This document shows positions 10,005 to 27,005 of a DNA stretch of 35,341 nucleotides, in pieces (the stretch's first letter is position 1; the number at the start of each line of letters is the position of its first letter). The notes below the pieces were generated by a model. It ran no database searches, was not told the DNA's origin, and saw nothing but the letters and a program-made list of their open reading frames with translations. Made by a program: the position numbers and the translations under genes. This DNA comes from an uncultured Eubacteriales bacterium (GTDB lineage Bacteria; Bacillota; Clostridia; Christensenellales; Aristaeellaceae): assembly GCA_902788445.1 (NCBI GenBank), contig CADAKE010000004.1, forward strand, positions 1-35,341, written 5' to 3'.

Positions 10005-11366
10005 TTATGTGGGAATAACCGCTTCCAAATAAAAGATATTTCCATCCGCGTGAATATCCATCTGACCGCTGTATTTGCGCACGATGCTGCGGATGCTTTT
10101 CAGGCCATAGCCATGGTTGGCTTTGTCCGGCTTCCGGGTCTGCGGCAGACCGTCCTGCATTTGGATACTGCCGTCAAAATAGTTTTCCAGCTGGATATAC
10201 AGGATATTCCCTTTGTCCAGGATGGACAGACTGATGATCTTCTGTTCGGGATTTTCCACGCGCTCCACGCTCTCAATGGCGTTGTCCAGGGCATTTCCCA
10301 GCAGGGTGTACAAATCCACCAGCGCAATCTTTTTCAGGTTTTCGGTGTTCACCATGCAGGAAAGCCGGATGCCGCGGTTCTTGCAATATACGCTTTTCTC
10401 CGTCAGCAGGGTGTCCAGCGCCTCGTTGCCGGTTTTTACGATGGCGTCATAAAAATCAATCGCCCGGCTGGTTTCCTGAATCTGGCGCTTTCGCTCCTCA
10501 TCCGACACCTGGGCCAGCGCCTGCAACTGGTGCTTCAGATCATGGCTTTTCTGATTGATCATGTCGATGTTTTCTTTGGAAAACTCGTACTGCGCCTGCC
10601 GTTCCTTTGCCAGGCGGCTGATGATTTCGTTTTCCGTTTTTAGCGCCATCCGCTGGTGAATATACCACATGACGGCGGTCATCACCACACTGAGCAGGAT
10701 CAGCACGGCGGAAAGGAACAACTGTAAATATCGGTATATAGCAAGAAGCGATTCGTGCAGGGCGATAGGCTGGATCACGTTTTCCATCAAGTGCTTGGTG
10801 GCGGACATGATAAGTATGTAAGCCGCGTACAGAAAAAGATACATCCAGGTAGAAAACCGATCCTCGCTGCTCCACCTCCCCCTTACCCGGCGGAAATGGG
10901 GCTCCAGCACCGAATAAACAGCGGCATAAAAGGCCGCATAGACGGCAAGCATCATGAACAGATATAATCCGGGATGCTGCTCCGGGAAATCGGGAAAAAA
11001 AGTATATACGAACAGATTGCGAATCAGCACGGTCACGATGTTTTCCGTGAAGGAAGTGATCATCATATAATACAGCGCGGTATTCAGTCCCGTATCATAG
11101 CAGATGAACACATACGCCACCAGTACCGCGTTCATGAAAAGCCAATAGGGGCCGATCAATATGGGATAAGCGGTCAAGTAAGGCCGGAGCAGCGCCTGCA
11201 GCGGAACATAGCAAAAGGCCAGCAGCAGACAAACGGCGGAGCCAACGCTGATCCTCAACCGAAACCTTTCACGGTGAGGAAGCGTTTTGTGGCATAAAAC
11301 CCACAGCATCCCCAGCGTTCCAGCCATAAAACGGAACTGATCCAACAGCGCCAAAAACAATTGCAT
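10005..11366 (-). CDS. GHKL-type sensor histidine kinase
   Basis: A 453-residue sensor kinase of the AgrC/NatK-like group. The first ~235 residues hold about six to seven hydrophobic segments. A short coiled region (240-270) leads to KSHDLKHQLQAL, with the likely phospho-acceptor H275. The ATPase part has the N-box LGNALDNAIESV and the glycine-rich HGYGLKSIRSIV near the end. This C-terminal type (HATPase_c_5) usually pairs with LytTR regulators, and a LytTR gene lies six bases upstream in the same operon. The multi-pass sensor region suggests a membrane-proximal or peptide-like signal, but the signal is unknown. The adjacent glucan operon is the most likely target, by position only. Confidence 0.88.
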   Translation of the reverse strand: MQLFLALLDQFRFMAGTLGMLWVLCHKTLPHRERFRLRISVGSAVCLLLAFCYVPLQALLRPYLTAYPILIGPYWLFMNAVLVAYVFICYDTGLNTALYYMMITSFTENIVTVLIRNLFVYTFFPDFPEQHPGLYLFMMLAVYAAFYAAVYSVLEPHFRRVRGRWSSEDRFSTWMYLFLYAAYILIMSATKHLMENVIQPIALHESLLAIYRYLQLFLSAVLILLSVVMTAVMWYIHQRMALKTENEIISRLAKERQAQYEFSKENIDMINQKSHDLKHQLQALAQVSDEERKRQIQETSRAIDFYDAIVKTGNEALDTLLTEKSVYCKNRGIRLSCMVNTENLKKIALVDLYTLLGNALDNAIESVERVENPEQKIISLSILDKGNILYIQLENYFDGSIQMQDGLPQTRKPDKANHGYGLKSIRSIVRKYSGQMDIHADGNIFYLEAVIPT

Positions 11367-11372
11367 GTTCCT

Positions 11373-12071
11373 TCACCTGTGCAAATATTTCATGTATTCG
11401 TTCAGCAGCGAATCCTTGTATGCCCGGCCCAAAGGGATGCTTAAATTGGACACCTGCGCTTCCGAAGCGGTGACGCCGCCCAAATGGGCCAGATTGATCA
11501 GATAGGATTTATGGCATCGAACGAAATGATACTTTTTTAACGTACCCTCCTGCTCCTTCATGCTGGCCCGCACCTTGTATTCCCTGTCCGCCGTGTGATA
11601 GATCAGGTAATGGGCCATGACTTCAATATATAGAATCCTTTCCGTTTCCAGGGATACCGGCCCGTTTACCGTATCAATCACCAGCGTTTGTCGGCGGCTT
11701 TGGGCAGCGCGCCGCAGCGCCTTTTGAAACTTCATGGCAAAATCGTAATAGCCGATGGGCTTGATGATATAATCCACCGCGTCCACTTCGTAGCCGTTGA
11801 TGGCGTACTGGGCGATGTTGGTAATGAACAGGATCACCACCTGCTCGTCCTTTTCCCGGATTTTTCGGGCGGTGTCCATGCCGTTCAAGCCCGGCATATC
11901 AATATCAAAGATCAGAATATCATATTGCTGCGCATAGTCAGCCAGCAGCGCATTTCCGGAAGAAAAAGAAAACACGCTCATTTCCTGTCCTTTTTCCTTG
12001 GACATCCGTTCAATATAGCCTTGCAGCGTTTCCCGAACAGAAGCCTCGTCGTCCACTATGGCAATCCGCAT
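11373..12071 (-). CDS. LytTR-family response regulator
   Basis: A 232-residue regulator. The receiver domain (1 to about 120) has the acidic pocket VDDE (6-9), the phosphorylation site D56 in LIFDIDMPG and the lysine of VDYIIKPIG. The C-terminal LytTR DNA-binding domain (about 130-232) contains ILYIEVMAHYLIYHT, then FVRCHKSYLIN and a late basic stretch. It is the first gene of a two-gene operon with the GHKL kinase and has a strong promoter of its own at 12143-12170. LytTR proteins bind paired direct repeats; a candidate pair lies upstream of the glucan operon at 9969-10000. Confidence 0.92.
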   Translation of the reverse strand: MRIAIVDDEASVRETLQGYIERMSKEKGQEMSVFSFSSGNALLADYAQQYDILIFDIDMPGLNGMDTARKIREKDEQVVILFITNIAQYAINGYEVDAVDYIIKPIGYYDFAMKFQKALRRAAQSRRQTLVIDTVNGPVSLETERILYIEVMAHYLIYHTADREYKVRASMKEQEGTLKKYHFVRCHKSYLINLAHLGGVTASEAQVSNLSIPLGRAYKDSLLNEYMKYLHR

Positions 12072-13450: not shown

Positions 13451-15082
13451 TCATTTCTTTCCGCAAATCGCATCGATCCATTCCAGCGCTTCCCCGGGGT
13501 AATCCGCTTCGCTGTGGGGCTGATCCCATACAAGCGCATAATCCACGGGATAACCAGCGTTGGCTAATTTGACGGCCAGGATCATGGAAACGGTGAAAGC
13601 GGTATCGGCGTCGCTGGCGCCTACCCGGATTCGATAGTGCTTTGCCTGGACGCTCTTTTCGGCGGTGCCGATAAAGTTCATGGGATTCAGCAGGAAAACC
13701 CGTTCCGCCAGGGCCGCGTCCCCGGAAACGTCGAATGCGCCTTCGTACTTCGCCGCTTCTTCCGGGAAATCCTGGCGCAATTCTGCGATGGCTTCGCCGA
13801 GGACGGGATTGAAATGGGCGTAATCGGTTTCGGGTGAACCGAATACGTGGTTTTCGCCGCTGTTCCCGTTCAGGGCGTCAAAGGCCGTGCAGGGCTTCAT
13901 CCGGCGGCGATGGTTCATTACATAATCATCCAGAGAGGAAATGACGGCCTTTTGCCCGTCCCAGGACAGCCAGGCCCGCTTGTCGCTGCCCTGTTTTTGG
14001 ATCATCTCAGGCTTGTGCTCCACGCAGGGCGTGCCCTTGGGCGGACGGCTCATCATGTCCCCCAGACTCATGGGACGCTCGTCCAAAACGACGCCGGGGC
14101 CCGCGTGGTGGGCGTTGCCGCCGTGCGGCGCGGGAGCTTCGTAGGTATAATTGCCAGTTAGATAATCTTCTGCCGGGTAGGACAGACGACTCAAGAATTT
14201 GGATGCGGAAGCATTCAAACAATCCATCAGATAATCATAGAAGGAGCCGCCGCGGCCATCGGAACGCAGGGTCAGGGGTTCGTTCGTTTCCGGATGGCGC
14301 AGTTCCAAGCTGTTTACGTATGTGATATACTTATCAGACAATTTCCTGGATAGGGCTTCCTTGAAGGGCGTCATGGTTTCGGAGGGGCCGCACATGCAGT
14401 CCTCGCTGACCTTGTCCGCTTGGAAGCACCATTCATAGGCCAGGTCGGCGTGCTCCAGGTCGATAATGGGACAGTAAATCTGTGCGGCGAATATGGCGTC
14501 GCTTTCATCCATGAACGCGCCGTTTTTCTCCAAATAGAGATTATACCGGATATTATCGCCGGTCACGCCCAGCAGTGCGCTCATGGCCCCGCCCGCGCTC
14601 CAGCCTACGGAGATGATCTTGTTAAAATCGCCGGGCAGGGCGTTTTTGTTGTGCCGAAGGAACCGCAGTGCCGTTTTCATGTCGATCAGCGAAATGGGGG
14701 ATTTGCCCACCAATTCGCCTTTTTCATTCCGGCTTTCCCGGCCCCGGCAGCCGCAGGTGATATAGATGAGGCCGTGATTCAAATACTGCTCGGCATAGCA
14801 ACGGGGGCCGCCGAGCCAGGTGTGGGGCATCTGCATATATCCGGCAGCGTTGTTTTCAAACACGATGGGCACGCTCTTGCTTTGATCGGTGGGCGTGCCG
14901 TCCGGATTCATGTACGCCTTGGGCACGAAGATGGACAGCCGCTGAAACTTGGGCACGTCGGCCTTTGCCGTGTAGAGGACATCCTCCAGACACCAGCAGT
15001 CAAACTTTTCATCAAGCGTCCATTTGTCCCGGCAATCGGTCAATTCCATGGTTTGGTTGATGATAGGAATATAATCGCTCAT
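13451..15082 (-). CDS. Subtype-B tannase-like alpha/beta hydrolase
   Basis: A serine esterase of about 543 residues. VGWSAGGAMSALLG holds the nucleophile S162, and AAQIYCPIIDLEHADLAYEW and RIRVGASDADTAF resemble bacterial subtype-B tannases (Lactobacillus plantarum TanLp1 type). The likely acid D491 and the base H523 in WDQPHS are 32 residues apart, matching the D419/H451 spacing I recall for TanLp1. Such enzymes cleave galloyl and similar aromatic esters; the true substrate here is unknown. No signal peptide, so probably cytoplasmic. The ATG at 15082 has AAAGGATGG upstream; an upstream in-frame ATG at 15133 lies inside the DUF554 gene. It is second in a two-gene operon 16 bases after DUF554. 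A tryptophan replaces the usual residue after Gly in the nucleophile elbow. Confidence 0.82.
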   Translation of the reverse strand: MSDYIPIINQTMELTDCRDKWTLDEKFDCWCLEDVLYTAKADVPKFQRLSIFVPKAYMNPDGTPTDQSKSVPIVFENNAAGYMQMPHTWLGGPRCYAEQYLNHGLIYITCGCRGRESRNEKGELVGKSPISLIDMKTALRFLRHNKNALPGDFNKIISVGWSAGGAMSALLGVTGDNIRYNLYLEKNGAFMDESDAIFAAQIYCPIIDLEHADLAYEWCFQADKVSEDCMCGPSETMTPFKEALSRKLSDKYITYVNSLELRHPETNEPLTLRSDGRGGSFYDYLMDCLNASASKFLSRLSYPAEDYLTGNYTYEAPAPHGGNAHHAGPGVVLDERPMSLGDMMSRPPKGTPCVEHKPEMIQKQGSDKRAWLSWDGQKAVISSLDDYVMNHRRRMKPCTAFDALNGNSGENHVFGSPETDYAHFNPVLGEAIAELRQDFPEEAAKYEGAFDVSGDAALAERVFLLNPMNFIGTAEKSVQAKHYRIRVGASDADTAFTVSMILAVKLANAGYPVDYALVWDQPHSEADYPGEALEWIDAICGKK

Positions 15083-15098
15083 TGAAACCCATCCTTTC

Positions 15099-15800
15099 TT
15101 ATAACAGCGGGACGATCCAGGCGGCCCAGGCATAGCTGATGGGCCACACCAGGATCATGGCGGGGATCATATCGGCAATGGGGAAATCCTTGATTTTGGC
15201 GATGCGGAAACCTGTCGCCAGCATGATCAAGCCGCCGCAGGCTTTGAAGTCATTGATCATGGCGGGAGTGGTCAACGGGAAAATCAGCCTGGCGCACAGG
15301 AACAGGATCATAAAAATGATGAACTGCGGAATAGCCACCAGGCATGTTACCATCCCCAGCGAGCAGGCGAAGATCATGGCGGTGAAAATATCCAGGATGG
15401 ATTTAGCCAGCAGGATGCTGTGATCCCCACTCATGCCAGACACGATGGAACCGTAAATGCCCGTGCCGCTGGAACAAAATAATACAATGGTCGTCACCAA
15501 TAAGGCACTGTCCATGTTGTTTTGCCCAGGAATCAGGCTCGCCAGTTTTTTGCCGCCATTTTCGATGCGGCGTCCCAAATGGGTCACGATACCGATGATA
15601 GTACCTACAATCAGCGCCAGCACCACGGCCGGCATATTCTGCATGAGAACAATGGACGAAATGCCGATGCCCATGGAGCAGATACCGAAGATCAGGTTCA
15701 GCTTTTCCTTAAATTCCTGGGACAGCTTGTTTCCCGCTTTTGCCCCAATCAAGCCGCCGATGGCTACCGCCAGCACGTTGCAAATGACGCCAATGGGCAT
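15099..15800 (-). CDS. DUF554 family membrane protein
   Basis: A membrane protein of 233 residues with about seven hydrophobic segments, matching the DUF554 (YdfK/YqgA-like) family: the start MPIGVICNVLAVAIGGLIGA and the glycine-rich middle (FCSSGTGIYGSIVSGMSGD) are typical. Function unknown; these are presumed small-molecule transporters or channels. I chose ATG 15800, with GGAGG seven bases upstream, over a longer frame from 15878 that would overlap its own promoter. It has a clear promoter (15838-15866), is divergent from the alpha/beta hydrolase gene and is co-transcribed with the tannase-like gene. Confidence 0.88.
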   Translation of the reverse strand: MPIGVICNVLAVAIGGLIGAKAGNKLSQEFKEKLNLIFGICSMGIGISSIVLMQNMPAVVLALIVGTIIGIVTHLGRRIENGGKKLASLIPGQNNMDSALLVTTIVLFCSSGTGIYGSIVSGMSGDHSILLAKSILDIFTAMIFACSLGMVTCLVAIPQFIIFMILFLCARLIFPLTTPAMINDFKACGGLIMLATGFRIAKIKDFPIADMIPAMILVWPISYAWAAWIVPLL

Positions 15801-15837: not shown

Positions 15838-15866
15838 ATTGTATCGGAATCATGCTGGAAAATCAA
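15838..15866 (-). promoter_or_regulatory. Promoter of the DUF554-tannase operon
   Basis: On the minus strand TTGATT (15861-15866) and TACAAT (15838-15843) are 17 bases apart, about 38 bases before the DUF554 ATG. It stands back to back with the divergent promoter at 15922-15951; the shared regulatory element lies between and over them, so one regulator could act on both. Confidence 0.65.
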
Positions 15867-15896
15867 ATCATAATTCAAAAAAATTATCCCGGCTCA

Positions 15897-15951
15897 CGCA
15901 ATAATAGAGGCGAAAAACGGTTTGAATGATATCCACTTTCGCCTTTATAAT
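15897..15951 (+). promoter_or_regulatory. Shared element copy 1 and promoter of the alpha/beta hydrolase gene
   Basis: The element runs CGCAATAATAGAG then GCGAAAAACGGTTTGA (15897-15925). Its end forms the -35 box TTGAAT (15922-15927), followed after 18 bases by TATAAT (15946-15951). The same ~29-bp element occurs at 20976 and 22351, each time overlapping a -35 box. This copy is the most diverged on its left side. Confidence 0.75.
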
Positions 15952-15985
15952 GTAAATAACGAAAAAATGGAAGGAGTGTTTTTCC

Positions 15986-16840
15986 ATGCCCCATCCGCCC
16001 ATGATGCCGCCGCCCATTTCCTTAACGGCCCAGGAAGCTGCCTATATGGACAATGTCCAAAAGTTCCAGCAGTTTACTTTTGCCTATGAAGGACATACAC
16101 TGCCCTATAATCTGTATGTTCCTGCCAAAATGGACCAGCCGCTGCCGCTGGTGGTGTTCATGCACGACATGGGCTCCGTTTCTCAGGAGCCGGATCATAC
16201 TCTGCGCCAGGGCATCGGCGCGCTGGTGTGGGCGGACAACAGGGAGCAGGAGAAACGGCCTTGCTTTGTGCTGGCTCCCCAGTACGGCGAAAAATCTGCC
16301 CACGACGATTACACCGTGGGCTGGGCGGCGGAAGCGACCATCGCCCTGATCCAGAGCGTGTACCAAAAGTATGATATCGACACCAAGCGCATCTATGGTA
16401 CCGGCCAATCCATGGGCACCATGATGCTGTGCGAATTGCTGATTCGGCATCCCCACTTCTTCGCGGGCTGCTTCCTGACAGCCGGGCAATGGGACCCGGA
16501 ACGCATGGCGGCCATTAAAGATGAGCGCGTGTGGATCATGGTCTCTGAGCGCGACGGTCGGGCTTTTCCCATCATGGGCGAATGCATGGCTTCTATTGAG
16601 GCAGCGGGCGGCAAGGTGGCCCGGGGCCACGTGGACGCCAAGGCGGACGAGGAAACGAAGGCGGCGTTCTGCAAGGAGGTACTTTCCCAAAACGCCCATA
16701 TCCAGTTCACCTGGCTGGACGGCGACAGCGTGCTCACACCGGACGCCCCTGATTTCCCCGCGGTGTATCACATGTATACCTGGAAATGGGCATATCTCTT
16801 TGAGCCCATCCGGGCATGGCTGTTTGAACAAAGGCTGTAA
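15986..16840 (+). CDS. Alpha/beta hydrolase, esterase/depolymerase-like
   Basis: A 284-residue alpha/beta hydrolase. The strand-turn-helix LPLVVFMHDMG (residues 53-63), YGTGQSMG with nucleophile S142, and a final HMYTWKWAY region are visible. The shape resembles the PHB-depolymerase/feruloyl-esterase-like group, sometimes annotated as prolyl oligopeptidase family. ISLTAQEAAYMDN and a Pro/Met-rich start (MPHPPMMPPP) precede the fold; no signal peptide. AAGGAG lies nine bases before the ATG. Its promoter carries shared element copy 1, tying it to the ceramidase-like gene and the ABC importer. A LysR gene follows 80 bases later. Substrate unknown; ester or amide cleavage of an imported compound is likely. 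Confidence 0.8.
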   Translation: MPHPPMMPPPISLTAQEAAYMDNVQKFQQFTFAYEGHTLPYNLYVPAKMDQPLPLVVFMHDMGSVSQEPDHTLRQGIGALVWADNREQEKRPCFVLAPQYGEKSAHDDYTVGWAAEATIALIQSVYQKYDIDTKRIYGTGQSMGTMMLCELLIRHPHFFAGCFLTAGQWDPERMAAIKDERVWIMVSERDGRAFPIMGECMASIEAAGGKVARGHVDAKADEETKAAFCKEVLSQNAHIQFTWLDGDSVLTPDAPDFPAVYHMYTWKWAYLFEPIRAWLFEQRL

Positions 16841-16920
16841 TCAATATTCCGGCTGAGCGCTGCTTCCCTTGCTTGGAGCGGCGCTTCTCCTGTTCTTTAC
16901 GCAAGGAAAGGAAAATCAAG

Positions 16921-17847
16921 GTGAACATTACGGTAGATATGCTCCGGGCGTTCCGGGCGGCCGCCGAAACGCAGAATTTTACCAAAGCGGCGGAGCAGAC
17001 GTATATGACGCAGCCCGCGTTCAGCCGCCTGATGTCCGGCCTGGAAAAAGAATGGCAGGTGCGCCTGTTTGAAAGGACCACCCGGAAGGTGAGCCTGACG
17101 CCGGCGGGCCAGCTTTGCTATTTAACAGCGGCCCGGATGCTGGAGCAATACGACCATATGCTGTCGGAAGTGGAAAAAATCAAACGCACCTTCAGCGGCG
17201 AAATGAAGGTGGGCTGCAATACCATGTCCGGTATGCCGGAGGTTTTCGTGCACGCCATGCGGGAAATGAAGCAGGAATATCCCGGCGTGCGCATCAGCGT
17301 CGTCAGCGCAGGGTCGGTGGATCTGGTGCCCATGATCGAATCGGGAGAATTGGACTGCGGCGTGGTTTGGAGCAAATCGGTCATGTCGTCAGACAAGATG
17401 GACATGATGAAGCTGGCGCCGACCCATAAGTACGCGATTTTGTCCTCCGAGCATCCGTTGGCGGAAAGGGCGAGCATTTCTCTTCGTGATTTGACGGGCC
17501 TTCCCATCATTTATATGAAAGATCGGGAAAAGCGTACCTACCAAATGGTTTCCCAGGTTTGCCAGGAGATCGGCCTTTCCCTGATGGAGGCGGAACCAGC
17601 CAACAACTATGATGAAATGATCATGCGCGTCAGCGTGGGCGGCGAGGCTGCCATTTCCAGCTTCGCTTACGCGGATCACTACTATAAAGAGGTCGTCTTT
17701 CGCCCCATCAGCGATTTGGAGCAGGCGGAAATCAACGGCTGGCGCGTCCTGGTATGGCGAAAAGACAATGAAAACGAAGGGGTCCAAACGCTTTGCGCCA
17801 TCCTGGAAAAACAGTTGGCGTTATCCTCTCTCGCCCCAGCGGAATAG
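16921..17847 (+). CDS. LysR-family transcriptional regulator
   Basis: A regulator of about 308 residues. The N-terminal winged helix-turn-helix is clear (MLRAFRAAAETQNFTKAAEQ, TQPAFSRLMSGLEKEW, LFERTTRKVSLTPAG). The rest is the substrate-binding-like effector domain (GEMKVGCNTMSG, ESGELDCGVVWS, PIIYMKDREKRTY). I chose the GTG at 16921, with AAGGAAA upstream; the in-frame ATG at 16873 would add 16 atypical residues. It lies downstream of the alpha/beta hydrolase, probably in the same transcript, and is a candidate regulator of the three shared-element promoters. A terminator follows at 17878-17924. The effector is unknown. Confidence 0.9.
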   Translation: MNITVDMLRAFRAAAETQNFTKAAEQTYMTQPAFSRLMSGLEKEWQVRLFERTTRKVSLTPAGQLCYLTAARMLEQYDHMLSEVEKIKRTFSGEMKVGCNTMSGMPEVFVHAMREMKQEYPGVRISVVSAGSVDLVPMIESGELDCGVVWSKSVMSSDKMDMMKLAPTHKYAILSSEHPLAERASISLRDLTGLPIIYMKDREKRTYQMVSQVCQEIGLSLMEAEPANNYDEMIMRVSVGGEAAISSFAYADHYYKEVVFRPISDLEQAEINGWRVLVWRKDNENEGVQTLCAILEKQLALSSLAPAE

Positions 17848-17877
17848 GCGGTTATTCATATCAAAAATGCAATAAAT

Positions 17878-17924
17878 ACGGGCTGCGGATTGCACGAAAA
17901 CGGCATTTCACAGCCCGTTTTTTC
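17878..17924 (+). terminator. Terminator after the LysR gene
   Basis: ACGGGCTG (17878-17885) pairs with CAGCCCGT (17911-17918), followed by a run of Ts. The loop is 25 bases. The downstream arm overlaps the -35 box of the next gene's promoter. Confidence 0.7.
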
Positions 17925-17935
17925 TATGTTATGAT
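17907..17935 (+). promoter_or_regulatory. Promoter of the secreted protein gene
   Basis: TTCACA (17907-17912) and TATGAT (17930-17935) are 17 bases apart; each differs from consensus by one base. It overlaps the preceding terminator. The leader to the ATG at 18028 is about 85 bases and includes CCGGCAG/CTGCCGG, a small hairpin. Confidence 0.6.
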
Positions 17936-18027
17936 ACATGTATCGGAGGGAAACGGTTTTCTTCCGGCAGCCTGATCCACCTGCCGGGGGAAAACCAGAA
18001 CCTCCAATATAAGAAGGAGTGAATCGT

Positions 18028-19611
18028 ATGAAAAAGCTGCTGGCTCTGATGCTTGCCGCGCTGCTGGCAATATCCTGCGTATCCCTTGCGCTGGCCGAGG
18101 AAACCGCGCCCATCGTCACGGTGGAGAGCACCATCTTTGGCACCGCGAATACCGAAAACTTCTCTACCTTGAAGGCTTTTACCGATAAAGAACTGTCTGT
18201 CCCCGGCCAACCTGTCGCCTATACCGGCGAAGCGGTCATCCGGGTGGCCTTTGCCGATGGCACCCCTGTGGACGACAGCAAAATCGACCTGAGCGGCGCC
18301 AAGGTCGCCATCGTGGACGGCGACGCGTATTACGCGGAGGACTTCATCCTGAACGCTTCCACATTGAACGGCGAAGTGAAGGACGGGCAGATCGTTTACA
18401 CCCTGAATACCGGCGACGTGGAATGGAACCAGTACGGCTATCCCGTGGCCGAGGGCGGCCTGGAATGGAGCGCCATCGGCGGCAACGGCAACGGCGAATA
18501 CGCCCTGAACTTTGAAGTGAGCGGCATCCAGTATGACGGCCAGGAGCTGGCCCCCGCCACCTTCCGCGCCAATTACTATATCTTTGGCCGTGAATTCACC
18601 GCCAAGGCTTCTCCCCGCAATCCCGCCGGTTCCGTGTGGGGCGCTGGCGGCTATGACAACATCGTGATCCCCGAGGCCGCCCAGGCTGACCTGACCGAGG
18701 TTGTCACCGTGGACGCGGAACCCGTATTCACCTGGGTCGGCGCTGGCGACCAGCCCATCCTGTGCGATGATCAGACCGATAACTTCTACATTTCCTGGCC
18801 CGCTGGCGTGGACGCCTCCACCCTGACTGACGCGGACGTGACCTTGACCCTTAGGAGCGCCTACGGCGACGAACGGGTGCTGGTGCCCAACACCGGCGTT
18901 ATCACCTTTGAGCAGAATGGCATCTCCATTCCCAACGGCGAATATACCGTGTATGCCAGCGAAAACACCACCCAGATTTCCGTGAACCTGCAGCTGTGGG
19001 CCGCCGCACCTGTATACACCCAGCTGACGATTCAGGTAAACGGTGAAAATACCGCTGAAAAGACCTATGACGTGGCCTCTGTGTACACCCATCAGGTGCA
19101 GACCGGCGGCGGCCTGGACCTCCAGGGAAAGACCGTGACCGTGGTCAGCATTTTCGGCATCGACGGCATCGAGAACCTGACGGCTTCTGACGTGTTCAAC
19201 GAAGTGACCTATCGCTACACCTACCGGGAAGGCCAGGGCCCCCAGGCCAAAGAAAAATACTTCCTGGTGGATGACGGCAACGGCGGCTTCACCGTGACCG
19301 AAAACAAGGAAGAAGCCACGGTGTATCCTTCCGATGCTTCCAACGTACAGCTGCTGGGCCATAACATCTTTACCACGGACGCCGTGGGCACCGTGGAGGT
19401 GGAATACAACGGCGAAACCCTCACCTTCTCCCGGGCCATGAGCTATGGCAATGCCGCGGGCAATGGGCTGAAAAAGCCCGTGGAAGCCGGCCTCAAGGCC
19501 GCTCCCGGCTACGTTCTGACCCAGAAGGGCTCCTATGATGATCACCAGCGCTGGGGCTGGCTGCACTTTAACAACGTCGGCTGGATGTCGCCTGTGGAAG
19601 AAGTCAAATAA
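18028..19611 (+). CDS. Secreted protein of unknown family
   Basis: I do not recognise the family. The protein has 527 residues. A type I signal peptide is clear: MKKLLALMLAALLAISCVSLALA with cleavage after ALA near residue 23; the Cys at 17 is not in a lipobox. The mature part is acidic, rich in Thr, Val, Gly and Asp, with many predicted beta-strands and no obvious catalytic motif, suggesting beta-sandwich domains for binding. There is no membrane anchor or sorting signal at the C-terminus, which ends with aromatic residues (RWGWLHFNNVGW). AAGGAG lies eight bases before the ATG. It has its own promoter and sits between the two LysR genes. Confidence 0.75.
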   Translation: MKKLLALMLAALLAISCVSLALAEETAPIVTVESTIFGTANTENFSTLKAFTDKELSVPGQPVAYTGEAVIRVAFADGTPVDDSKIDLSGAKVAIVDGDAYYAEDFILNASTLNGEVKDGQIVYTLNTGDVEWNQYGYPVAEGGLEWSAIGGNGNGEYALNFEVSGIQYDGQELAPATFRANYYIFGREFTAKASPRNPAGSVWGAGGYDNIVIPEAAQADLTEVVTVDAEPVFTWVGAGDQPILCDDQTDNFYISWPAGVDASTLTDADVTLTLRSAYGDERVLVPNTGVITFEQNGISIPNGEYTVYASENTTQISVNLQLWAAAPVYTQLTIQVNGENTAEKTYDVASVYTHQVQTGGGLDLQGKTVTVVSIFGIDGIENLTASDVFNEVTYRYTYREGQGPQAKEKYFLVDDGNGGFTVTENKEEATVYPSDASNVQLLGHNIFTTDAVGTVEVEYNGETLTFSRAMSYGNAAGNGLKKPVEAGLKAAPGYVLTQKGSYDDHQRWGWLHFNNVGWMSPVEEVK

Positions 19612-19656
19612 TTCATCCAAACTAATACTAAAATCCGATTCAAAGTAGACATCTTT

Positions 19657-19689
19657 TCGGCCATGATCGATCCCGTCGATCATGGCCGA
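19657..19689. repeat. Perfect 14-bp stem hairpin
   Basis: TCGGCCATGATCGA (19657-19670) and TCGATCATGGCCGA (19676-19689) pair perfectly around five bases. Neither side has a T-run, so it is not a standard intrinsic terminator. The sequence CCGATTCAAA occurs on both sides (19635 and 19685), giving a 50-base direct repeat around it. It lies between the secreted protein gene and an esterase remnant; function unknown. Confidence 0.6.
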
Positions 19690-19727
19690 TTCAAAAGAGA
19701 GGAGCATCACCATGAAAATGTATCAGC

Positions 19728-19898
19728 GAATCCTATGTTTGCCAACGAGGACAAAACTCCACTTCCATGTACCGCGCCAACAATTGGCTCAATGAGCGCG
19801 GCGTGGAGCACGGCTATCTGTTCGTGCCCGGCGGCCATACCTGGATCACCTGGACGCAACTGATGGAGGTATTCGCCACGGAATATCTTTGGAAATAA
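19728..19898 (+). pseudogene. C-terminal remnant of an esterase (PF00756-like)
   Basis: Fifty-seven codons read ESYVCQRGQNSTSMYRANNW, then LNERGVEHGYLFVPGGHTW and on to a TAA. The pattern, a strand followed by an N..Y..N..L.ERGV..GY...PGGH.W.TW stretch, is the usual C-terminal end, with the catalytic His, of esterase-D/putative-esterase proteins. The nucleophile part is absent. An ATG with a GAGAGGAG site at 19713 enters another frame and stops quickly, so I call this a remnant. Confidence 0.6.
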
Positions 19899-19918
19899 CG
19901 GATTTCTTCCGGTAAACG

Positions 19919-19950
19919 AAGGCGCTGATCTGATGCGGTCAGCGCCTTTC
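19919..19950. terminator. Terminator hairpin between remnant and LysR2
   Basis: AAGGCGCTGA (19919-19928) pairs perfectly with TCAGCGCCTT (19939-19948). Only a short T-run follows on the plus strand. Lying just past the stop of the minus-strand LysR gene, it may serve both directions. Confidence 0.6.
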
Positions 19951-19952
19951 TG

Positions 19953-20843
19953 TTACGCCCCTTCAAAGGGAACGGTTTTGACCAGTTCCAGGAATCGCTT
20001 GCAGGCAGTATTGAATTTCCGGTCCTTCAGGTACGCCAGGAACACGGTGGTGGTCACCCGGGGCTCGATATCCACCAGGGTCAGGTTATCAGGCAGAATC
20101 GGCGCAACGGGCTTGCTCATGAGCAGGGCGATGCCGGTGCCCTGGTCGATCAATTCCACCAGGTTTTCCGCCCGCTGGCTGGTGAACACCACCTTGGGCA
20201 CAAAGCCCGCGTTCCGGCACAAGTCGGTGCACAGCTTGTACATAAAGGAATTTTTGCTGATCAGCAGCAGGGATTCGTTTTCCAGCTGCTTGAAGGTGAT
20301 GGTTTTATGCCGGGCCAGGGGATGGGCCTTGGGCAGCACAGCCACCAGATGATCCTCGGAAATGGGGATGGTTTCAAATTCGTCCACGGAAATGTGCTTG
20401 TTTCGCAGGAAAGCGAAGTCAATTTCGCCCTTGCGCAGCATTTCCGCCAAGGGGGTGGAATCGGCCTCGTGGATGTTGATGATCACGTTTTTGTTATTCT
20501 GGCGGTATTGCTGCAAGATCCGGCTGATGTTGTACGCCTTCATCATGGGGATGGAGCCAATGCCGATGGCGCCCTTGGAGTACATCACTTCCTCGTCAAA
20601 GGCCATGGCGCATTCGTCGTCGATCTTGACGAACTGCTTGGCATAAGGCAAAAACAGCCTGCCGTGGCGGTTCAGTTCCACTTTGCGGGTCGTGCGGTCA
20701 AACAGCGGAATGCCAAGTTCCTCTTCCAGCGCCTTGATGTGGCGGGAGAGCGAAGAGGTTGTGATGAATAGCCGTTCTGACGTTTCAAAATAACTGCCTG
20801 TCTCCGCTAAAGATACAAATTCACGGATGTATTTCAGTTCCAT
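19953..20843 (-). CDS. LysR-family transcriptional regulator (second)
   Basis: A 296-residue LysR protein. The winged helix-turn-helix spans residues 1-60 (MELKYIREFVSLAETGSYFE, TTSSLSRHIKALEEELG, LFDRTTRKVELNRHG). The effector domain follows, with GAIGIGSIPMM, EMLRKGEIDFAFLR and VAVLPKAHPLA. It is encoded divergently from the ceramidase-like gene, whose promoter bears shared element copy 2, the classic layout for a LysR regulator and its target. It has its own consensus promoter (20886-20914). Its ligand is unknown. With the other LysR gene at 16921 it is a candidate for control of the shared-element genes; I cannot tell which one. Confidence 0.92.
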   Translation of the reverse strand: MELKYIREFVSLAETGSYFETSERLFITTSSLSRHIKALEEELGIPLFDRTTRKVELNRHGRLFLPYAKQFVKIDDECAMAFDEEVMYSKGAIGIGSIPMMKAYNISRILQQYRQNNKNVIINIHEADSTPLAEMLRKGEIDFAFLRNKHISVDEFETIPISEDHLVAVLPKAHPLARHKTITFKQLENESLLLISKNSFMYKLCTDLCRNAGFVPKVVFTSQRAENLVELIDQGTGIALLMSKPVAPILPDNLTLVDIEPRVTTTVFLAYLKDRKFNTACKRFLELVKTVPFEGA

Positions 20844-20885
20844 GAAAATCCCTTCTTTATGTTTATTATCCTGTTTTGTGCAATA

Positions 20886-20914
20886 ATTATAGCGCTAAAG
20901 TGAGAAAATGTCAA
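20886..20914 (-). promoter_or_regulatory. Promoter of the second LysR gene
   Basis: On the minus strand TTGACA (20909-20914) and TATAAT (20886-20891) are both perfect and 17 bases apart, about 43 bases before the ATG. A fully consensus promoter is unusual for a regulator gene and suggests it may be held down by autorepression. Confidence 0.85.
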
Positions 20915-20975
20915 TCACGGAGAAATAATTACCAGATGATAGCGTAGCAAGAAGGAAATAGATTGTCCCATTTTT

Positions 20976-21030
20976 CGCAACAATACCCGCGAAAAACGGT
21001 TTGATTGCTGCCAAGCATTCCCGCTATAAT
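20976..21030 (+). promoter_or_regulatory. Shared element copy 2 and promoter of the ceramidase-like gene
   Basis: The element CGCAACAATACCC then GCGAAAAACGGTTTGA (20976-21004) ends in the -35 box TTGATT (21001-21006), with TATAAT at 21025-21030 after 18 bases. ATTTTT precedes it, as in copy 3. Core inverted repeat: CCG-N7-CGG. Confidence 0.8.
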
Positions 21031-21091
21031 GATGCTGTCAGAAATGATCAAATGTGTACCGGATCAAACAAAATTGCAGGAGGCGATGAGC

Positions 21092-22324
21092 ATGAAAATC
21101 GGCATCGGCCAAAGCAAAATGGAATTCCCCACGGGTTTCTTTCCCACGGAAGGATTCGTGAAACAGGCGCATCCTTTATATGTGCGCGTATTTTTCATTG
21201 ATGAAAAAACTCCCTTCGCCCTGGTGTCCATCGAAATGACTTCCCTTTCGGATGAGGAATGCGCCCGCATCAAAAAGGAAACGGCGATTCTGCTGGGTAT
21301 TGAGGAAAACCAGGTTTGGGCGGCGGCGACGCACACCTTCTCCGCGCCCCACATCCTGCCGGACTTCGCGCTGAAAACGGAGGAAGAAAAGGAAAAGCGC
21401 ACGCTTTTGCAGCGCACCCTGGGTGACGCCATTCGCGCGGCGGTATGGCAGGCCAAGCAGGAAGCAAAAGACAGCAAACTGACCTTGTTCCAGGGCGAAA
21501 TTAGCGTCATCGCCAGCCGGGATATCGAATTGCCCGACGGTTGGTGGATCGGCTGCGGCGGAAGCGGCCCCAGCGACAAAACGCTGACGGTACTGGAAGT
21601 GAAGCAGGAAGGAAAAACCAAAGCACTGCTGCTCCACGCCAACGTGCAGTCCTCCATCCTGGATGGCACCGGCGCGGCGGACGGCAAATGCGTGTCCGGC
21701 GATCTGGCGGGCATCGCCTGCGCGGAGCTGGAAAAGCGCTATCCCGGCGCAACGGTCATGTTCATGATCGGCGCGGCGGGGGATCAGGCTCCCGTCAAAC
21801 GAGCCAAGGGATACGCGCCGGACGGACAGGGCGGCTATCAGGAAATCGACCTGCATGAAGACGGCATCCCGCTGGCTGAGACGCTGGGGCAGAAGCTGGC
21901 CACCGATGTGATGGCGGCTTTGCGGAATGACGGCGTACAATTAAACGGACAGGCAAAGACGGCATCCCGCTCCTTCTATGCTCCTGCTAAGAAAATGAAC
22001 CGCAACCTGCGGGAATTGAAACCCACCCATTCCTGCGCATGGGAATTGGATGGAGAAAAGGAACAGACCATCGAACTGTTCGCCCTGGGCGATCTGGTCA
22101 TCATCGGCGTCAAGCCGGAACTGACCTATCCCACGCTCAAACAGCTTCAGGAAGCAAGCCCCTATCCCATCACCCTGGCCGCCACCATGATCAACGGCGG
22201 CGCGAAATACATGGCCGATCAAAGCGCTTATGACCGCTGTATGTACGAAGCCATCAATTCCCCCTTCGCGCCTGGGGCGGCGGAGATGCTGGTCAAAGAA
22301 GCCGCCGCGCTGTTGAAGCGGTAA
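21092..22324 (+). CDS. Neutral/alkaline ceramidase-like protein
   Basis: A 410-residue protein resembling the N-terminal catalytic fold of neutral/alkaline non-lysosomal ceramidases, a family with many uncharacterised bacterial members. Matching segments are VWAAATHTFSAPH (residues 75-87; family form THTHSGP), SGDLAGIACAELEKR, and MFMIGAAGDQAP (family form G.AGD..P). In the family these surround a zinc-dependent amidase site. The second His of THTH is Phe (F83), and I do not see the usual metal-ligand His before the SGD segment, so the chemistry may differ. No signal peptide. The ATG at 21092 has AGGAGG eight bases upstream; ATG 21086 is too close to that site. Its promoter carries shared element copy 2. 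Confidence 0.65.
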   Translation: MKIGIGQSKMEFPTGFFPTEGFVKQAHPLYVRVFFIDEKTPFALVSIEMTSLSDEECARIKKETAILLGIEENQVWAAATHTFSAPHILPDFALKTEEEKEKRTLLQRTLGDAIRAAVWQAKQEAKDSKLTLFQGEISVIASRDIELPDGWWIGCGGSGPSDKTLTVLEVKQEGKTKALLLHANVQSSILDGTGAADGKCVSGDLAGIACAELEKRYPGATVMFMIGAAGDQAPVKRAKGYAPDGQGGYQEIDLHEDGIPLAETLGQKLATDVMAALRNDGVQLNGQAKTASRSFYAPAKKMNRNLRELKPTHSCAWELDGEKEQTIELFALGDLVIIGVKPELTYPTLKQLQEASPYPITLAATMINGGAKYMADQSAYDRCMYEAINSPFAPGAAEMLVKEAAALLKR

Positions 22325-22350
22325 CGACTGGCTGTGATTATCCCATTTTT

Positions 22351-22404
22351 TGCGACAATAACCGCGAAAAACGGTTTGATTCTGGCCGACAAATCCATTA
22401 TACT
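22351..22404 (+). promoter_or_regulatory. Shared element copy 3 and promoter of the ABC importer
   Basis: TGCGACAATAACC then GCGAAAAACGGTTTGA (22351-22379) ends in TTGATT (22376-22381), with TATACT at 22399-22404 after 17 bases. In this copy the core is a clean inverted repeat AACCG-N7-CGGTT. The leader to the ATG at 22516 is about 105 bases. Confidence 0.8.
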
Positions 22405-22515: not shown

Positions 22516-24030
22516 ATGAAAAAGTTCTTATCTCTGGTTCTGGCTCTGATCATGGTTCTCTCGATGGCGAGCTTCGCCTCCGCCGAACAGGGCGCGTCCG
22601 TGGTGGTCGGCCTGGCGGGCGATCCCGGCAACATCGGCCCCTTCCAGGGCATGGGCCTGGGCCGCATCGGTATCCTGTTCACCACCTATGAAATGCTGAT
22701 GGTCAAGGACGGCGACAATTTCGTCGGCTGCCTGATGAAGGAACTCACCCCCGTGGACGACCTGACCTACGACGTGGAAATCTACGACTACATCGTGGAC
22801 CAGGCGGGCAACAAGCTGACCGCCAGCGACATCAAGTTCTGCTTTGACACCGCCAAGGCCGACGGCAACCTGCCCAAGCTCTCCTCCGTGGACAGCGTGG
22901 AAGTGCTGAGCGACTACGTGGCCCGGTTCCATTTCACCGCCCTGGCCGCGGGCGATCTGGAATCCCTGCTGATGGAATGCCCCATCGTCACCCAAGCCGC
23001 CTATGAAGCCTCCGCTGACAAGATGGCTACCGACCCCATCACCACCAGCCCCTATCAGGTGGTTGATTACAAGACCGGCTCCACCATCACCTACAAGCGC
23101 AACGAAAACTACTGGCAGAAGGACGAACTGCTGGTGAGCACCTCCAAGCACAACGTGGATGAAATCACCTTCAAGATCATTCCCGACCCCGTGCAGCTGG
23201 TGAATGCTCTCAAAACCAAGGAAATCGACATTTCCGCCGCCATCGACGGTTCCTACATCTCCGACTTCATGGGCGTTGAAGGCTTCGACGTGACCCAGAT
23301 TCCCGACAACACCACCAAGTACCTGATCTTCAACTACGATTCCATCCCCAATGCCGCCGAGCGCCAGGCCATTGCCTACGCCGTGGACGTGGACGATATC
23401 ATCGCTTTCGCCTTTGACGACATCGGCTATCACGCCAAGACCGTGGGCAACAACAAGTACCCGGACTTCGTGGAATCCTGGAACGACGAAGAATACTACG
23501 AGTATGACGAGGAAAAGGCCCAGGCCCTGTTTGCCGAAGCGGGCGTTTCCGCCGGCAAGACCTACCGTCTGCTCTACAACGTGGCCGATGACAACACCAA
23601 GATCGTCACCACCATCCAGGCCGCGCTGGGCTTCTTCGGCATCAACGTGGAACTGATCGGCTACGACAACGCGCTGTTCGGCACCTACAAGTATGACGAA
23701 AAGAACTCCGGCGAATGGGACATCATGCTGGACGAAGGCGGCTCCTCCAACCTGCTCACCAACGTGTGGAAGCTGACCCTGGACGCCCGCGACCAGACCT
23801 ACGGCAAGACCGTCGGCCATGTGAAGGACGACACCCTGCAGTCCCTCATCGAAGCCGCCATCAACGACAACAGCCCCGAAAACATGGACGCTTTCCATCA
23901 GTACCTGAAGGAACAGTGCTATGAATACGGCCTGGTGTCCAAGGTGAACAACCTGGCCCACACCACCGTCGTGACCAAGGCTGCCACCTGCTTCCGCGGC
24001 CAGATCCTGCCCGGCGCCTGCGAGTATTGA
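22516..24030 (+). CDS. Extracellular solute-binding protein, family 5 (Dpp/Opp type)
   Basis: A 504-residue substrate-binding protein of an ABC importer (SBP_bac_5 family, peptides, glycosides, opines or similar). The signal peptide MKKFLSLVLALIMVLSMASFASA is of type I, with cleavage near residue 23; there is no lipobox cysteine, unusual for a Gram-positive binding protein. The family layout is visible in LTASDIKFCFDTAK, SPYQVVDYKTGSTITYKRNENYW and ERQAIAYAVDVDDII. AAAGGAAGG lies upstream of the ATG. It is the first gene of the importer operon, under shared element copy 3, and is separated from the permease genes by a strong hairpin. The ligand cannot be read from sequence; the esterase neighbours suggest a conjugate rather than a plain peptide. 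Confidence 0.9.
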   Translation: MKKFLSLVLALIMVLSMASFASAEQGASVVVGLAGDPGNIGPFQGMGLGRIGILFTTYEMLMVKDGDNFVGCLMKELTPVDDLTYDVEIYDYIVDQAGNKLTASDIKFCFDTAKADGNLPKLSSVDSVEVLSDYVARFHFTALAAGDLESLLMECPIVTQAAYEASADKMATDPITTSPYQVVDYKTGSTITYKRNENYWQKDELLVSTSKHNVDEITFKIIPDPVQLVNALKTKEIDISAAIDGSYISDFMGVEGFDVTQIPDNTTKYLIFNYDSIPNAAERQAIAYAVDVDDIIAFAFDDIGYHAKTVGNNKYPDFVESWNDEEYYEYDEEKAQALFAEAGVSAGKTYRLLYNVADDNTKIVTTIQAALGFFGINVELIGYDNALFGTYKYDEKNSGEWDIMLDEGGSSNLLTNVWKLTLDARDQTYGKTVGHVKDDTLQSLIEAAINDNSPENMDAFHQYLKEQCYEYGLVSKVNNLAHTTVVTKAATCFRGQILPGACEY

Positions 24031-24127: not shown

Positions 24128-25114
24128 ATGATCAAATATATCGGAAAGCGATTGCTGTGGATGATCCCGGTCATGCTGGGCATCGCTGTCCTGATCTTCT
24201 CCATCATGTATATTTGCCCCGGCGATCCGGCGCAGAGCCTGCTGGGCCCCAGCGCCTCGGCGGTGGAACTGGCCGCCAAGCGCGAGGAAATGGGCCTGAA
24301 CGATCCCTATATCGTCCGTCTGGGCCGCTACCTGTACCAGACCTTCATCAAGTTCGACCTGGGCACTTCCTATAAGTTTGGCACCTCTGTGTTCGCCGGA
24401 TTGATGGAGCGCATGCAGTACACCCTGGTGATCGCCCTTCTGTGTATGGCCTTGCAGGTGTTCATCGGCACGCCCCTGGGCATCATGGCCGCTACCCATC
24501 ATAATGGGCTGTGGGACCGGGTCAGCATGTTCCTGGCGCTGGTGGGCGTCAGCATCCCGGCCTTCTGGCTGGCATTGATGCTGGTGCTGATCTTCGCGGT
24601 GAACCTGGGCTGGCTGCCCACCTCCGGTATTTCCAACGGCCTGGCCTCCTTCATCCTGCCCTGCATTGCCAACTCCTTCGCGGGCATCGCCTCCCAGGCA
24701 CGCCATACCCGCTCCTCCATGCTGGAGGTCATCCGCTCTGACTATATCGTGACCGCCAAGGCCAAGGGCCTGAACAGCAAGACCGTGCTCTTCAAGCACG
24801 CCCTGCCCAACGCCCTCATCCCCATCATCACCATCGTCGGCAACGGCATGGGCATGATGCTGGGCGGCACCGTGATCATTGAAAACGTGTTCGCCATCCC
24901 CGGCGTGGGCCGCTATATGACCGACGCCATCAACAGCCGCGACTATCCTGTGGTGATGGGCGGCGTGCTGATCCTGGGTCTGATTTTCAGCCTGATCATG
25001 CTGCTGGTGGATATCGTGTACGCCTTCGTGGACCCGCGCATCAAGGCGCAGTATGAAGGCAAGAAGAAGATGAAAAAAGCTCCCGAAGCAGCTGCCGCGA
25101 AAGGAGGCGCCTAA
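24128..25114 (+). CDS. dppB: ABC transporter permease, DppB/OppB type
   Basis: A 328-residue inner-membrane permease with about six membrane segments. The start MIKYIGKRLLWMIPVMLGIAV is typical of DppB/OppB. The EAA-like loop that contacts the ATPase (SDYIVTAKAKGL..KTVLFKHALPNAL) is at about residues 205-235, and ENVFAIPGVGRYMTDAI is a further family signature. GGGAGGAG precedes the ATG. It ends three bases before the next permease gene. The C-terminus is a Lys/Ala-rich tail beyond the usual family end. It forms the channel with the DppC-type partner. Confidence 0.93.
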   Translation: MIKYIGKRLLWMIPVMLGIAVLIFSIMYICPGDPAQSLLGPSASAVELAAKREEMGLNDPYIVRLGRYLYQTFIKFDLGTSYKFGTSVFAGLMERMQYTLVIALLCMALQVFIGTPLGIMAATHHNGLWDRVSMFLALVGVSIPAFWLALMLVLIFAVNLGWLPTSGISNGLASFILPCIANSFAGIASQARHTRSSMLEVIRSDYIVTAKAKGLNSKTVLFKHALPNALIPIITIVGNGMGMMLGGTVIIENVFAIPGVGRYMTDAINSRDYPVVMGGVLILGLIFSLIMLLVDIVYAFVDPRIKAQYEGKKKMKKAPEAAAAKGGA

Positions 25115-25117
25115 GCT

Positions 25118-25996
25118 ATGCAGAAAGCCGTTGACGTCGGCATCCGCAATCGCCGCCAGGGCCAGTTCGGCCAGGTGATGCACCGCCTTCGCAAAAACAA
25201 AGTGGCTATGATCGGTCTGGTCGTCCTATTGCTTTTGATCCTCATGGCCATTCTTTCTCCCTACATCACCCCCTATGATTACGCCAAGACCAGCAAAGCC
25301 GACCGTTACGCGCTCCCGAGCCTCCAGCACCTCTTCGGCTGTGACGCCATGGGCCGCGATATCCTCTCCCGCATCATGTACGGCGCCCGCGCCTCCCTGT
25401 GGCTGGGCTTGATGAGCACCCTGGTTTCCACCGTGATCGGCGTGCTGCTGGGCTCGCTGGTGGGCTACTACGGCGGCAAGGTGGACAACATCGTGATGCG
25501 CATCCTGGACATTATCCAGGCCATCCCCGGTATGCTGCTCTCCATCGCCATTTCCGCCGCGCTGGGCAGCGGCATCGGCAACACCATCCTGGCCCTGTCC
25601 ATCGGCGGCATCCCCATGACGGTGCGTTTGCTCCGCGGCTCCATCCTGACGGTGCGCAAGCAGGAATACATCGAAGCTGCTGAAAAGATCAACTGCTCCA
25701 AGTGGCGGGTCATCACCTCCCACATCCTGCCCAACTCCATCGCCCCCGTCATCGTGTCCGTCACCATGGGCATCGGCAACACCATTCTCCAGGCCGCGTC
25801 CCTTTCCTACATCGGCCTTGGCGTACAGCCGCCGACCCCCGAATGGGGCGCGATGCTGAGCGAAGGCAAATCCATGCTCACCAAATATCCGCACCTGTGC
25901 ATCTCCCCCGGTCTGGCGATCATGATCGTGGTGCTGTGCCTGAACATGCTGGGCGACGGCCTGCGCGACGCTATGGACCCGAAGCTGAAGAATTAA
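25118..25996 (+). CDS. dppC: ABC transporter permease, DppC/OppC type
   Basis: A 292-residue permease of the DppC/OppC type. After a basic N-terminal cytoplasmic stretch (about 1-28) a first membrane segment is followed by HLFGCDAMGRDILSRIMYGARASL, the family signature. The EAA loop is EYIEAAEKINCSKWRVITSHILPN, and LSYIGLGVQPPTPEWGAML is the usual C-terminal signature. It heterodimerises with the DppB-type permease. AAAGGAGG overlaps the end of the previous gene, so the two are coupled. The ATPase gene begins 16 bases after its stop. Confidence 0.94.
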   Translation: MQKAVDVGIRNRRQGQFGQVMHRLRKNKVAMIGLVVLLLLILMAILSPYITPYDYAKTSKADRYALPSLQHLFGCDAMGRDILSRIMYGARASLWLGLMSTLVSTVIGVLLGSLVGYYGGKVDNIVMRILDIIQAIPGMLLSIAISAALGSGIGNTILALSIGGIPMTVRLLRGSILTVRKQEYIEAAEKINCSKWRVITSHILPNSIAPVIVSVTMGIGNTILQAASLSYIGLGVQPPTPEWGAMLSEGKSMLTKYPHLCISPGLAIMIVVLCLNMLGDGLRDAMDPKLKN

Positions 25997-26012
25997 GAAA
26001 GGAGGAATCCCC

Positions 26013-27005
26013 ATGGCAAACACTCTTCTGTCCGTCAAAAACCTGTCCGTGGAGTACACCTCCGAAGGCGAGGTCATCCACGCCGTTAATCACGTATCCT
26101 TCGATCTGGAAAAGGGCAAGACCATTGGTCTGGTGGGCGAGACCGGCGCGGGCAAAACCTCCATCGCCCGGGCCATCCTGCGCATCCTGCCCGAGCCCCC
26201 GGCCCGGGTGCCCAATGGTGAAATCGAGTTTGAGGGCAAGGACCTGCTGAAAATCCGGGAAGAGGATATGCAGAAGATTCGGGGCAAGGAAATCTCCATG
26301 ATCTTCCAGGACCCCATGACCGCCCTGAACCCCATCATGCGCGTGGGCGAGCAGATCGCCGAGGTCATTCATCTGCACGAGCACTGCGGAAAGCACGAGG
26401 CCACCGAAAAGGCCAAGAAGATGCTGGAAATGGTGGGCATTTCCGGCGAGCGCTACTATGAATATCCTCATCAGTTCTCCGGCGGCATGAAGCAGCGCGT
26501 GGTCATCGCCATGGCCCTGGCGTGCAGCCCCACGCTCCTGTTGGCCGACGAGCCCACCACCGCCCTGGACGTGACCATCCAGGCCCAGGTGCTGGACATG
26601 ATCAACGACTTAAAGCAAAAGCTGAATACCTCCATGATCATGATCACCCACGACCTGGGCATCGTGGCCGAGGTGTGCGACACCGTGGCCGTCATCTACG
26701 CCGGCGAAATCATGGAATACGGCACCAAGGAGCAGATCTTCCACAATCCCCAGTATCCCTACACCATCGGCCTGTTCGGCTCCCTGCCCGACCTCAACAG
26801 CGACGTGGAACGGCTTTCTCCCATCGAGGGCCTGCCGCCGAACCCCGCCGACCTGCCCAAGGGCTGTGCCTTCAACCCCCGCTGCCCCTATGCCACCGAG
26901 GAATGCCGCAAGGAGCACATTGAACTCAAGGATATCGGCGGAGGCCACCTGTGCCGCTGCTGCCGCTTAAATGAAATTGCCGCTCAAAAGGCCAAGGAGG
27001 TGTAA
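26013..27005 (+). CDS. dppD: ABC transporter ATPase, DppD/OppD type
   Basis: A 330-residue ATPase. Walker A is GETGAGKTS (about residues 40-48), the signature FSGGMKQRV, Walker B LLLADEPTTALD and the H-loop ITHDLG. The C-terminal oligopeptide-importer extension holds CAFNPRCPYATEEC and a later CRCC; in some family members such cysteines bind an iron-sulfur cluster, which I cannot verify here. AAAGGAGG lies just before the ATG. It pairs with the DppF-type ATPase to drive the two permeases. Confidence 0.94.
   Translation: MANTLLSVKNLSVEYTSEGEVIHAVNHVSFDLEKGKTIGLVGETGAGKTSIARAILRILPEPPARVPNGEIEFEGKDLLKIREEDMQKIRGKEISMIFQDPMTALNPIMRVGEQIAEVIHLHEHCGKHEATEKAKKMLEMVGISGERYYEYPHQFSGGMKQRVVIAMALACSPTLLLADEPTTALDVTIQAQVLDMINDLKQKLNTSMIMITHDLGIVAEVCDTVAVIYAGEIMEYGTKEQIFHNPQYPYTIGLFGSLPDLNSDVERLSPIEGLPPNPADLPKGCAFNPRCPYATEECRKEHIELKDIGGGHLCRCCRLNEIAAQKAKEV

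Follow-up and report, generated by a model that had tools for sequence, protein, structure and literature searches.

The window considered here, a 35,341-bp stretch of DNA comprising contig CADAKE010000004.1 of an uncultured Eubacteriales bacterium, carries a repeated promoter element in front of genes for an esterase-like hydrolase (est), a neutral-ceramidase-like protein (cer), and an oligopeptide-type importer, together with two genes for LysR-type transcriptional regulators (LTTRs), lysR1 and lysR2. The three repeated elements are most likely docking sites of a neighboring LysR-type regulator. The sequence evidence makes it very probable that this regulator is LysR2, which would activate est, cer, and the importer genes in the manner of an LTTR and repress its own gene. 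The element described in the initial annotation is the right-hand part of a 45-bp operator, whose left-hand part is a conserved dyad. The regulon is new, and the kind of switch is a known and ordinary one, with a textbook LTTR layout. A literature search, conducted mostly without full text, returned no account of this operator or regulon.

The three copies reported initially are real. A 16-bp block, GCGAAAAACGGTTTGA, occurs exactly at 15910-15925, 20989-21004, and 22364-22379, always on the plus strand, and over the 29 positions of the element as first described copies 2 and 3 are identical at 26. Each block extends into a −35 box, as had been claimed, with a −10 box at a spacer of 18, 18, and 17 bp, respectively. 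The promoter scan places the est promoter (TTGAAT-18 bp-TATAAT) at 15922-15951, the cer promoter (TTGATT-18 bp-TATAAT) at 21001-21030, and the importer promoter (TTGATT-17 bp-TATACT) at 22376-22404, all on the plus strand. In the genome from which the window derives, a 3.1-Mb draft that is 80% complete, no further copy of GCGAAAAACGGTTTGA with 0 or 1 mismatch was found beyond these three, and three additional places match with 2 mismatches. When up to 3 mismatches were allowed, three matches were reached in 2 of 100 shuffles; the real three copies are exact. A 41-bp operator pattern was also run against 84,980 species genomes, a collection from which records very near the genome of the window may be left out. 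It yielded 11 exact sites on 9 contigs. Every one of these contigs bears a title naming uncultured Clostridia or Christensenellaceae, and five come from the rumen or omasum of roe deer and one from red deer; together with the window they represent eight genomes. With up to 3 mismatches there were 21 matches in 8 genomes, versus 0 for the reversed pattern. Extending as it does into −35 boxes, the element could be a general promoter extension of the lineage with no specific regulator, the outcome that the initial annotation had itself named as refuting its proposal. No such widespread occurrence was observed in the scans of the genome and its relatives, and the three block copies in the former, the nine contigs in the species collection, and the empty reversed control already contradict this explanation, which is scarcely credible. 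The right-hand block alone was tried as an operator marker and rejected, with one-mismatch copies in 27 of 100 relatives. Among the block places fetched from relatives, matrix scans gave a full operator in drafts G005 and G027 only; a third draft, G014, was reached via the dyad.

The conserved dyad, ATTRT-N13-AYAAT, lies to the left of the element first described. It occurs exactly four times in the window. Three of these sites, supported by the dyad pattern and by alignment, belong to copy 1 (ATTATCCCGGCTCACGCAATAAT; 15883-15905), copy 2 at cer (20962-20984), and copy 3 at the importer (22337-22359); the fourth, supported by pattern and matrix, is at the lysR2 promoter (20865-20887, reading ATTATCCTGTTTTGTGCAATAAT on the plus strand). 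The original count of three promoters was right for est, cer, and the importer but missed the site at lysR2. In the whole genome the dyad is found at 10 places, 4 of them in the 35-kb contig, and the six outside the window are without CGGTTTG at operator distance. Seventeen target sites, with 16 distinct dyad sequences, were aligned: est, cer, and the importer in the window; cer and the importer in G005; cer and an IlvD/Edd-type dehydratase in G027; a flavoprotein unit in G014; two sites each at the related loci L159, L160, and L167; and one each at L162, L163, and L165. Eight dyad bases are invariant in 17/17 sites; they mirror one another about a single axis as four complementary pairs (T1-A21, T2-A20, T4-A18, and C7-G15; pattern TT-T--C-N7-G--A-AA). 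The chance that eight of 22 positions make four mirror pairs is 0.001, complementarity not yet being required, and this axis comes top of an axis scan (0.64 vs. a mean of 0.28). Outside the dyad the invariant bases are G27, A32, and CGGTTTG at 35-41. Two other symmetries were rejected as the dyad. The inverted repeat AACCG-N7-CGGTT, proposed earlier as the symmetric core, pairs at 5/5 positions in copy 3, 4/5 in copy 2, and 2/5 in copy 1, and is perfect at only 3 of the 17 sites, all three of them importer promoters. The arms TTTTTCGC/GCGAAAAA are perfect in copy 2 and match at 7/8 positions in copy 3 but at only 2-5 of 8 in six of the 17 sites.

In 29 congeneric genomes a tighter form of the dyad gave 8 exact matches, all at this locus (G000, G005, and G027), and its reversed control gave 0. 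With one mismatch there were nine places in the genus; of the six read, the one in G014 alone is an operator. A dyad matrix was trained on the 17 targets, with five lysR2 sites left out of training. Among the hits listed above 15 bits in 116,869 bases from ten loci, all 30 fall at the 22 sites made up of these targets and lysR2 sites, on one or both strands. A separate candidate, at L190 894-934 (contig G102:C134), is an operator-like site with two mismatches and a strong palindrome, upstream of a gene that does not belong to the cluster.

As initially annotated, two LysR genes lie in the region, the second of which, lysR2 (19953-20843, minus strand), is divergent from cer. LysR2 has an N-terminal HTH_1 domain (1.2e-17) and a C-terminal LysR_substrate domain (1.9e-38), both above cut-off. 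The nearest NCBIfam models, CidR, GltC, and AlsR, share the LysR architecture and match nearly the whole protein (E 1e-47 to 1.7e-42), but the scores lie below the curated cut-offs (162.7 vs. 415, 157 vs. 350, and 145.9 vs. 430 bits, respectively) and LysR2 is therefore placed in none of these groups. The lysR2 promoter of the window, as read from the sequence (TTGACA-17 bp-TATAAT; 20886-20914, minus strand), ends within the dyad, which contains the final two bases of its −10 box. The target-trained matrix finds the dyad in 5/5 readable lysR2 promoters, with scores that are reached by 0, 0, 1, 0, and 0 of 4000 shuffles, and each of these dyads retains 7 of the 8 invariant bases. Wherever lysR2 and cer are adjacent (the window, L159, L160, and L167) they are divergent; LysR2 identity is 82, 90, and 90% in the latter three loci, and residues 27-44, in the helix-turn-helix (HTH) region, are unchanged in all four. 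Partial orthologues are present in G027 (35 N-terminal residues at the end of a contig, 97%) and G102 (a C-terminal fragment, 85%). LysR2 orthologues thus occur in 5/8 element-carrying genomes, the window's own included. In a set of eight upstream regions, seven distant LysR2 homologues (≤35%) are without a dyad of this type. L160 and L167 (CAMJXZ01 contigs 82 and 162) are from one draft with two lysR2-cer-importer loci, each with its own operators.

The positions of the two operator parts resemble those known from other LTTRs. With the start site assumed 7 bp downstream of the −10 box, the dyad is centered at −63 or −64 in 17/17 sites, in agreement with the LTTR primary-palindrome position near −65, and the right-hand block at −42 or −43 in 17/17 sites, 21 bp from the dyad center; the distance between the two is constant across the aligned sites. 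In LTTR operators the second site, next to the −35 box, lies some 22 bp downstream of the first. The accessible part of one account gives inverted repeats IR1/IR2 at −65/−43 for GcvA and at −66/−44 for OxyR and CynR, and describes how binding next to the −35 box activates and how binding over the promoter of the regulator gene leads to self-repression (PMC5002191). The portion available of a second describes the same general LTTR layout, with T-N11-A within the primary site (PMC4834489). On the proposed reading, a LysR2 dimer would bind the dyad and a second dimer would contact block GCGAAAAACGGTTTGA beside the −35 box, presumably through tetramer contacts. In the presence of an inducer the complex would activate RNA polymerase at est, cer, and the importer genes. 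The dyad of copy 1 may additionally serve divergent genes for a DUF554 membrane protein and a BD-FAE-type esterase, and the dyad over the −10 end and start region of lysR2 would give self-repression. That LysR2 represses its targets rather than activating them is improbable. A protein bound at the block, which reaches the −35 box, could obstruct polymerase, and several target −10 boxes are near consensus; yet the dyad and block positions fit the activator layouts of both sources, so far as these are available, and the −35 boxes (TTGATT, TTGAAT, and TTGCTT) are weak, like those of activator-dependent promoters.

The operator of LysR2, as proposed here, resembles those of the GcvA/OxyR/CynR type in its dyad and block positions, the divergent regulator gene, and the site over the regulator promoter, but by comparison with what the accessible part of PMC5002191 describes it differs in three respects: the dyad spans 23 bp and has T-N13-A, its sequence is not repeated in the second block, and two dyads, 97 bp apart, stand at lysR2 and cer in place of a single common site. 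A further comparison is with ThnR, an LTTR by which neighboring divergent promoters are activated. It is similar in serving several promoters, some of them divergent; unlike the ThnR arrangement in the portion available of PMC4834489, a single dyad here seems to be flanked by two promoters (at copy 1, and likewise in drafts G100 and G101).

Several observations weigh against assigning the whole operator to LysR2. Although T-N13-A holds in 17/17 dyads, the classical T-N11-A is in register in only 4/17, which weakens the LTTR claim without ending it, because PMC5002191, in the part accessible, lists 15-bp repeats with other inner spacings. Many of the 17 sites are orthologous and therefore not independent. 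The symmetry of the rejected arms TTTTTCGC/GCGAAAAA comes second in the axis scan (axis 21.5, mean 0.56) and is strong in some sites only. The right-hand block has no half-site in common with the dyad, is absent from the five lysR2 promoters, and is asymmetric, with CGGTTTG invariant in 17 sites and a variable left half. In the 29 congeners a loose form of the block, CGAAA-N1-3-ACGGTTTG, was found at 17 places, 6 of which are operators, versus 21 for the reversed control. The missing half-site, the asymmetry, and the absence from lysR2 promoters favor a division of the operator, in which LysR2 would occupy the dyad and the block GCGAAAAACGGTTTG would either be the target of a second regulator or extend the −35 box upstream. 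This division is nonetheless unlikely: the block keeps a fixed distance to the dyad in the 17 aligned sites, single dyads in G100 and G101 are flanked by it to the left and to the right (with CGATTTG on one side in G100), and the 11 loose-block places outside this locus have no dyad within 40 bp upstream.

The distribution of LysR2 itself raises a further difficulty. Three drafts that carry the element, G005, G014 (best match 35%), and G103, yielded no LysR2 orthologue. The G005 contig stops shortly before the cer promoter, in a stretch that matches nothing in the window, and LysR1 is present in G103 (93%). The operator might accordingly be owned by LysR1 (16921-17847, plus strand; profile match) or by a regulator outside the cluster, with lysR2 merely another target. 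LysR1 lies directly behind a target gene, 80 bp past est, and this short gap suggests that the two may be co-transcribed. Close orthologues of LysR1 occur in only 2/8 element-carrying genomes, however, and a site over the lysR2 promoter in 5/5 copies is what autoregulation of a LysR gene would predict; conservation of the operator is, moreover, accompanied by that of LysR2, including HTH residues 27-44. Ownership by LysR1 or an outside regulator is very unlikely. Because of the dyad in its own promoter and the scarcity of LysR1 orthologues, LysR2 appears the better candidate. Members of the LytTR family bind direct repeats, and a LytTR response regulator (11373-12071) was set aside as owner of the operator on this ground; it belongs to a GHKL sensor kinase and LytTR response regulator pair that adjoins the cluster (10005-12071, minus strand). 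In relatives a third LysR gene lies near est (L160 6861-7433, L163 4643-5506, and L167 6187-7047), 27-32% identical to LysR2 and unlike LysR1, which takes this place in the window.

The operator of copy 1 appears to work in both directions. The initial annotation assigned it correctly to est on the plus strand but missed a back-facing promoter, TTGATT-17 bp-TACAAT (15838-15866, minus strand), whose spacing to the dyad equals that of the est promoter and which leads to the genes for DUF554 (15099-15800, minus strand; Pfam DUF554 4e-62) and BD-FAE (13451-15133, minus strand; Pfam BD-FAE 9e-9). The BD-FAE start overlaps the DUF554 end, and the two genes are probably an operon. The promoter rule is satisfied at only 7 of 70,502 window positions. 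The five intergenic regions tested contain five of these positions: those at est, DUF554, cer, and the importer lie exactly next to dyads, and the last is at the lysR2 promoter. In G100 a single dyad between est and BD-FAE has promoters on both sides (with the est −10 match at 16 bp), as has a single dyad in G101 between DUF554-BD-FAE and a protein like that encoded at 18028-19611 in the window; orthologues of the BD-FAE gene thus stand behind operators in both drafts. L163 likewise has promoters on both sides of its dyad, the back-side gene not being identified. The strict block, CGGTTTG, is found on both sides in G101; one side reads CGATTTG in G100, and the DUF554 side reads TGATTTG in the window. 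Since the dyad is symmetric, agreement of the back-facing sites with its invariant bases is automatic, and only G100 and G101 contribute independent new dyads, which were found with a pattern that already fixed most invariant bases. A joint reading of these sites, which is less likely than not, has three parts. One LTTR dyad with a block on each side would drive two divergent catabolic units together: est and DUF554/BD-FAE in the window, est and BD-FAE in G100, and a secreted protein and DUF554-BD-FAE in G101. The regulon would grow as genes arrive with or gain the operator, as in the G027 dehydratase and the G014 flavoprotein unit. Finally, a T-N13-A dyad with a fixed CGGTTTG block would be a departure from the canonical T-N11-A. 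If true, the two-sided operators would be a clean example of a single LysR site for divergent operons.

The idea of a local LysR regulon joining the hydrolase, the ceramidase-like gene, and the importer is supported, with a larger gene set than was claimed. On the best reading of the sequence, the regulon of the window consists of lysR2, est (perhaps with lysR1), DUF554 and BD-FAE, cer, and the genes for the solute-binding protein and OppBCDF, to which relatives appear to add the dehydratase (G027) and the flavoprotein unit (G014). The est product (15986-16840, plus strand) is an esterase-like alpha/beta hydrolase by its profile matches, although its best Pfam match is slightly under the cut-off. 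The cer gene (21092-22324, plus strand) encodes a protein of 410 residues with no Pfam match even at E=1 and no PDB sequence match of weight. By fold, the protein model (medium confidence, mean pLDDT 63.6) is closest to the neutral ceramidase 2zws (Foldseek E 5.3e-13, TMq 0.58). The importer comprises a family 5 solute-binding protein (22516-24030, plus strand; SBP_bac_5 4.8e-52) and OppB, OppC, OppD, and OppF (24128-27977, plus strand; profile matches). No dyad was found by the window pattern scan upstream of the metallo-beta-lactamase-fold and amidohydrolase genes that follow (28388-30443). Because the targets are esterases, a ceramidase-like enzyme, and an oligopeptide-type importer, the set suggests an ester- or amide-linked substrate. 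Together with the dehydratase and flavoprotein of relatives, it points to the uptake and breakdown of one compound. For a group of uncultured gut Clostridia in which regulation is little studied, and which are represented here by draft genomes alone, these findings define an operator, name a candidate regulator, and list its likely targets.

Several further features of the locus and its relatives were observed. In G027 (contig C113, locus L028) the IlvD/Edd-type dehydratase gene (943-2685, 580 aa) lies between lysR2 and cer with its own operator copy; unlike G027, the window has no dehydratase gene at this place. The metallo-beta-lactamase-fold and amidohydrolase genes of the window have orthologues (88-89%) at L157 12199-13312 (G014:C98) that are present as two end-to-end pieces, joined as if the middle had been deleted, and misassembly is possible. 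A short frame at about 19714-19898 (plus strand), between the secreted protein gene and lysR2, resembles by eye, with no search made, a remnant of an esterase C-terminus. In the GH3 glycosidase encoded at 6821-10045 (minus strand) the order of the Pfam domains is swapped, with the C-terminal domain (154-380) before the N-terminal (800-1015).

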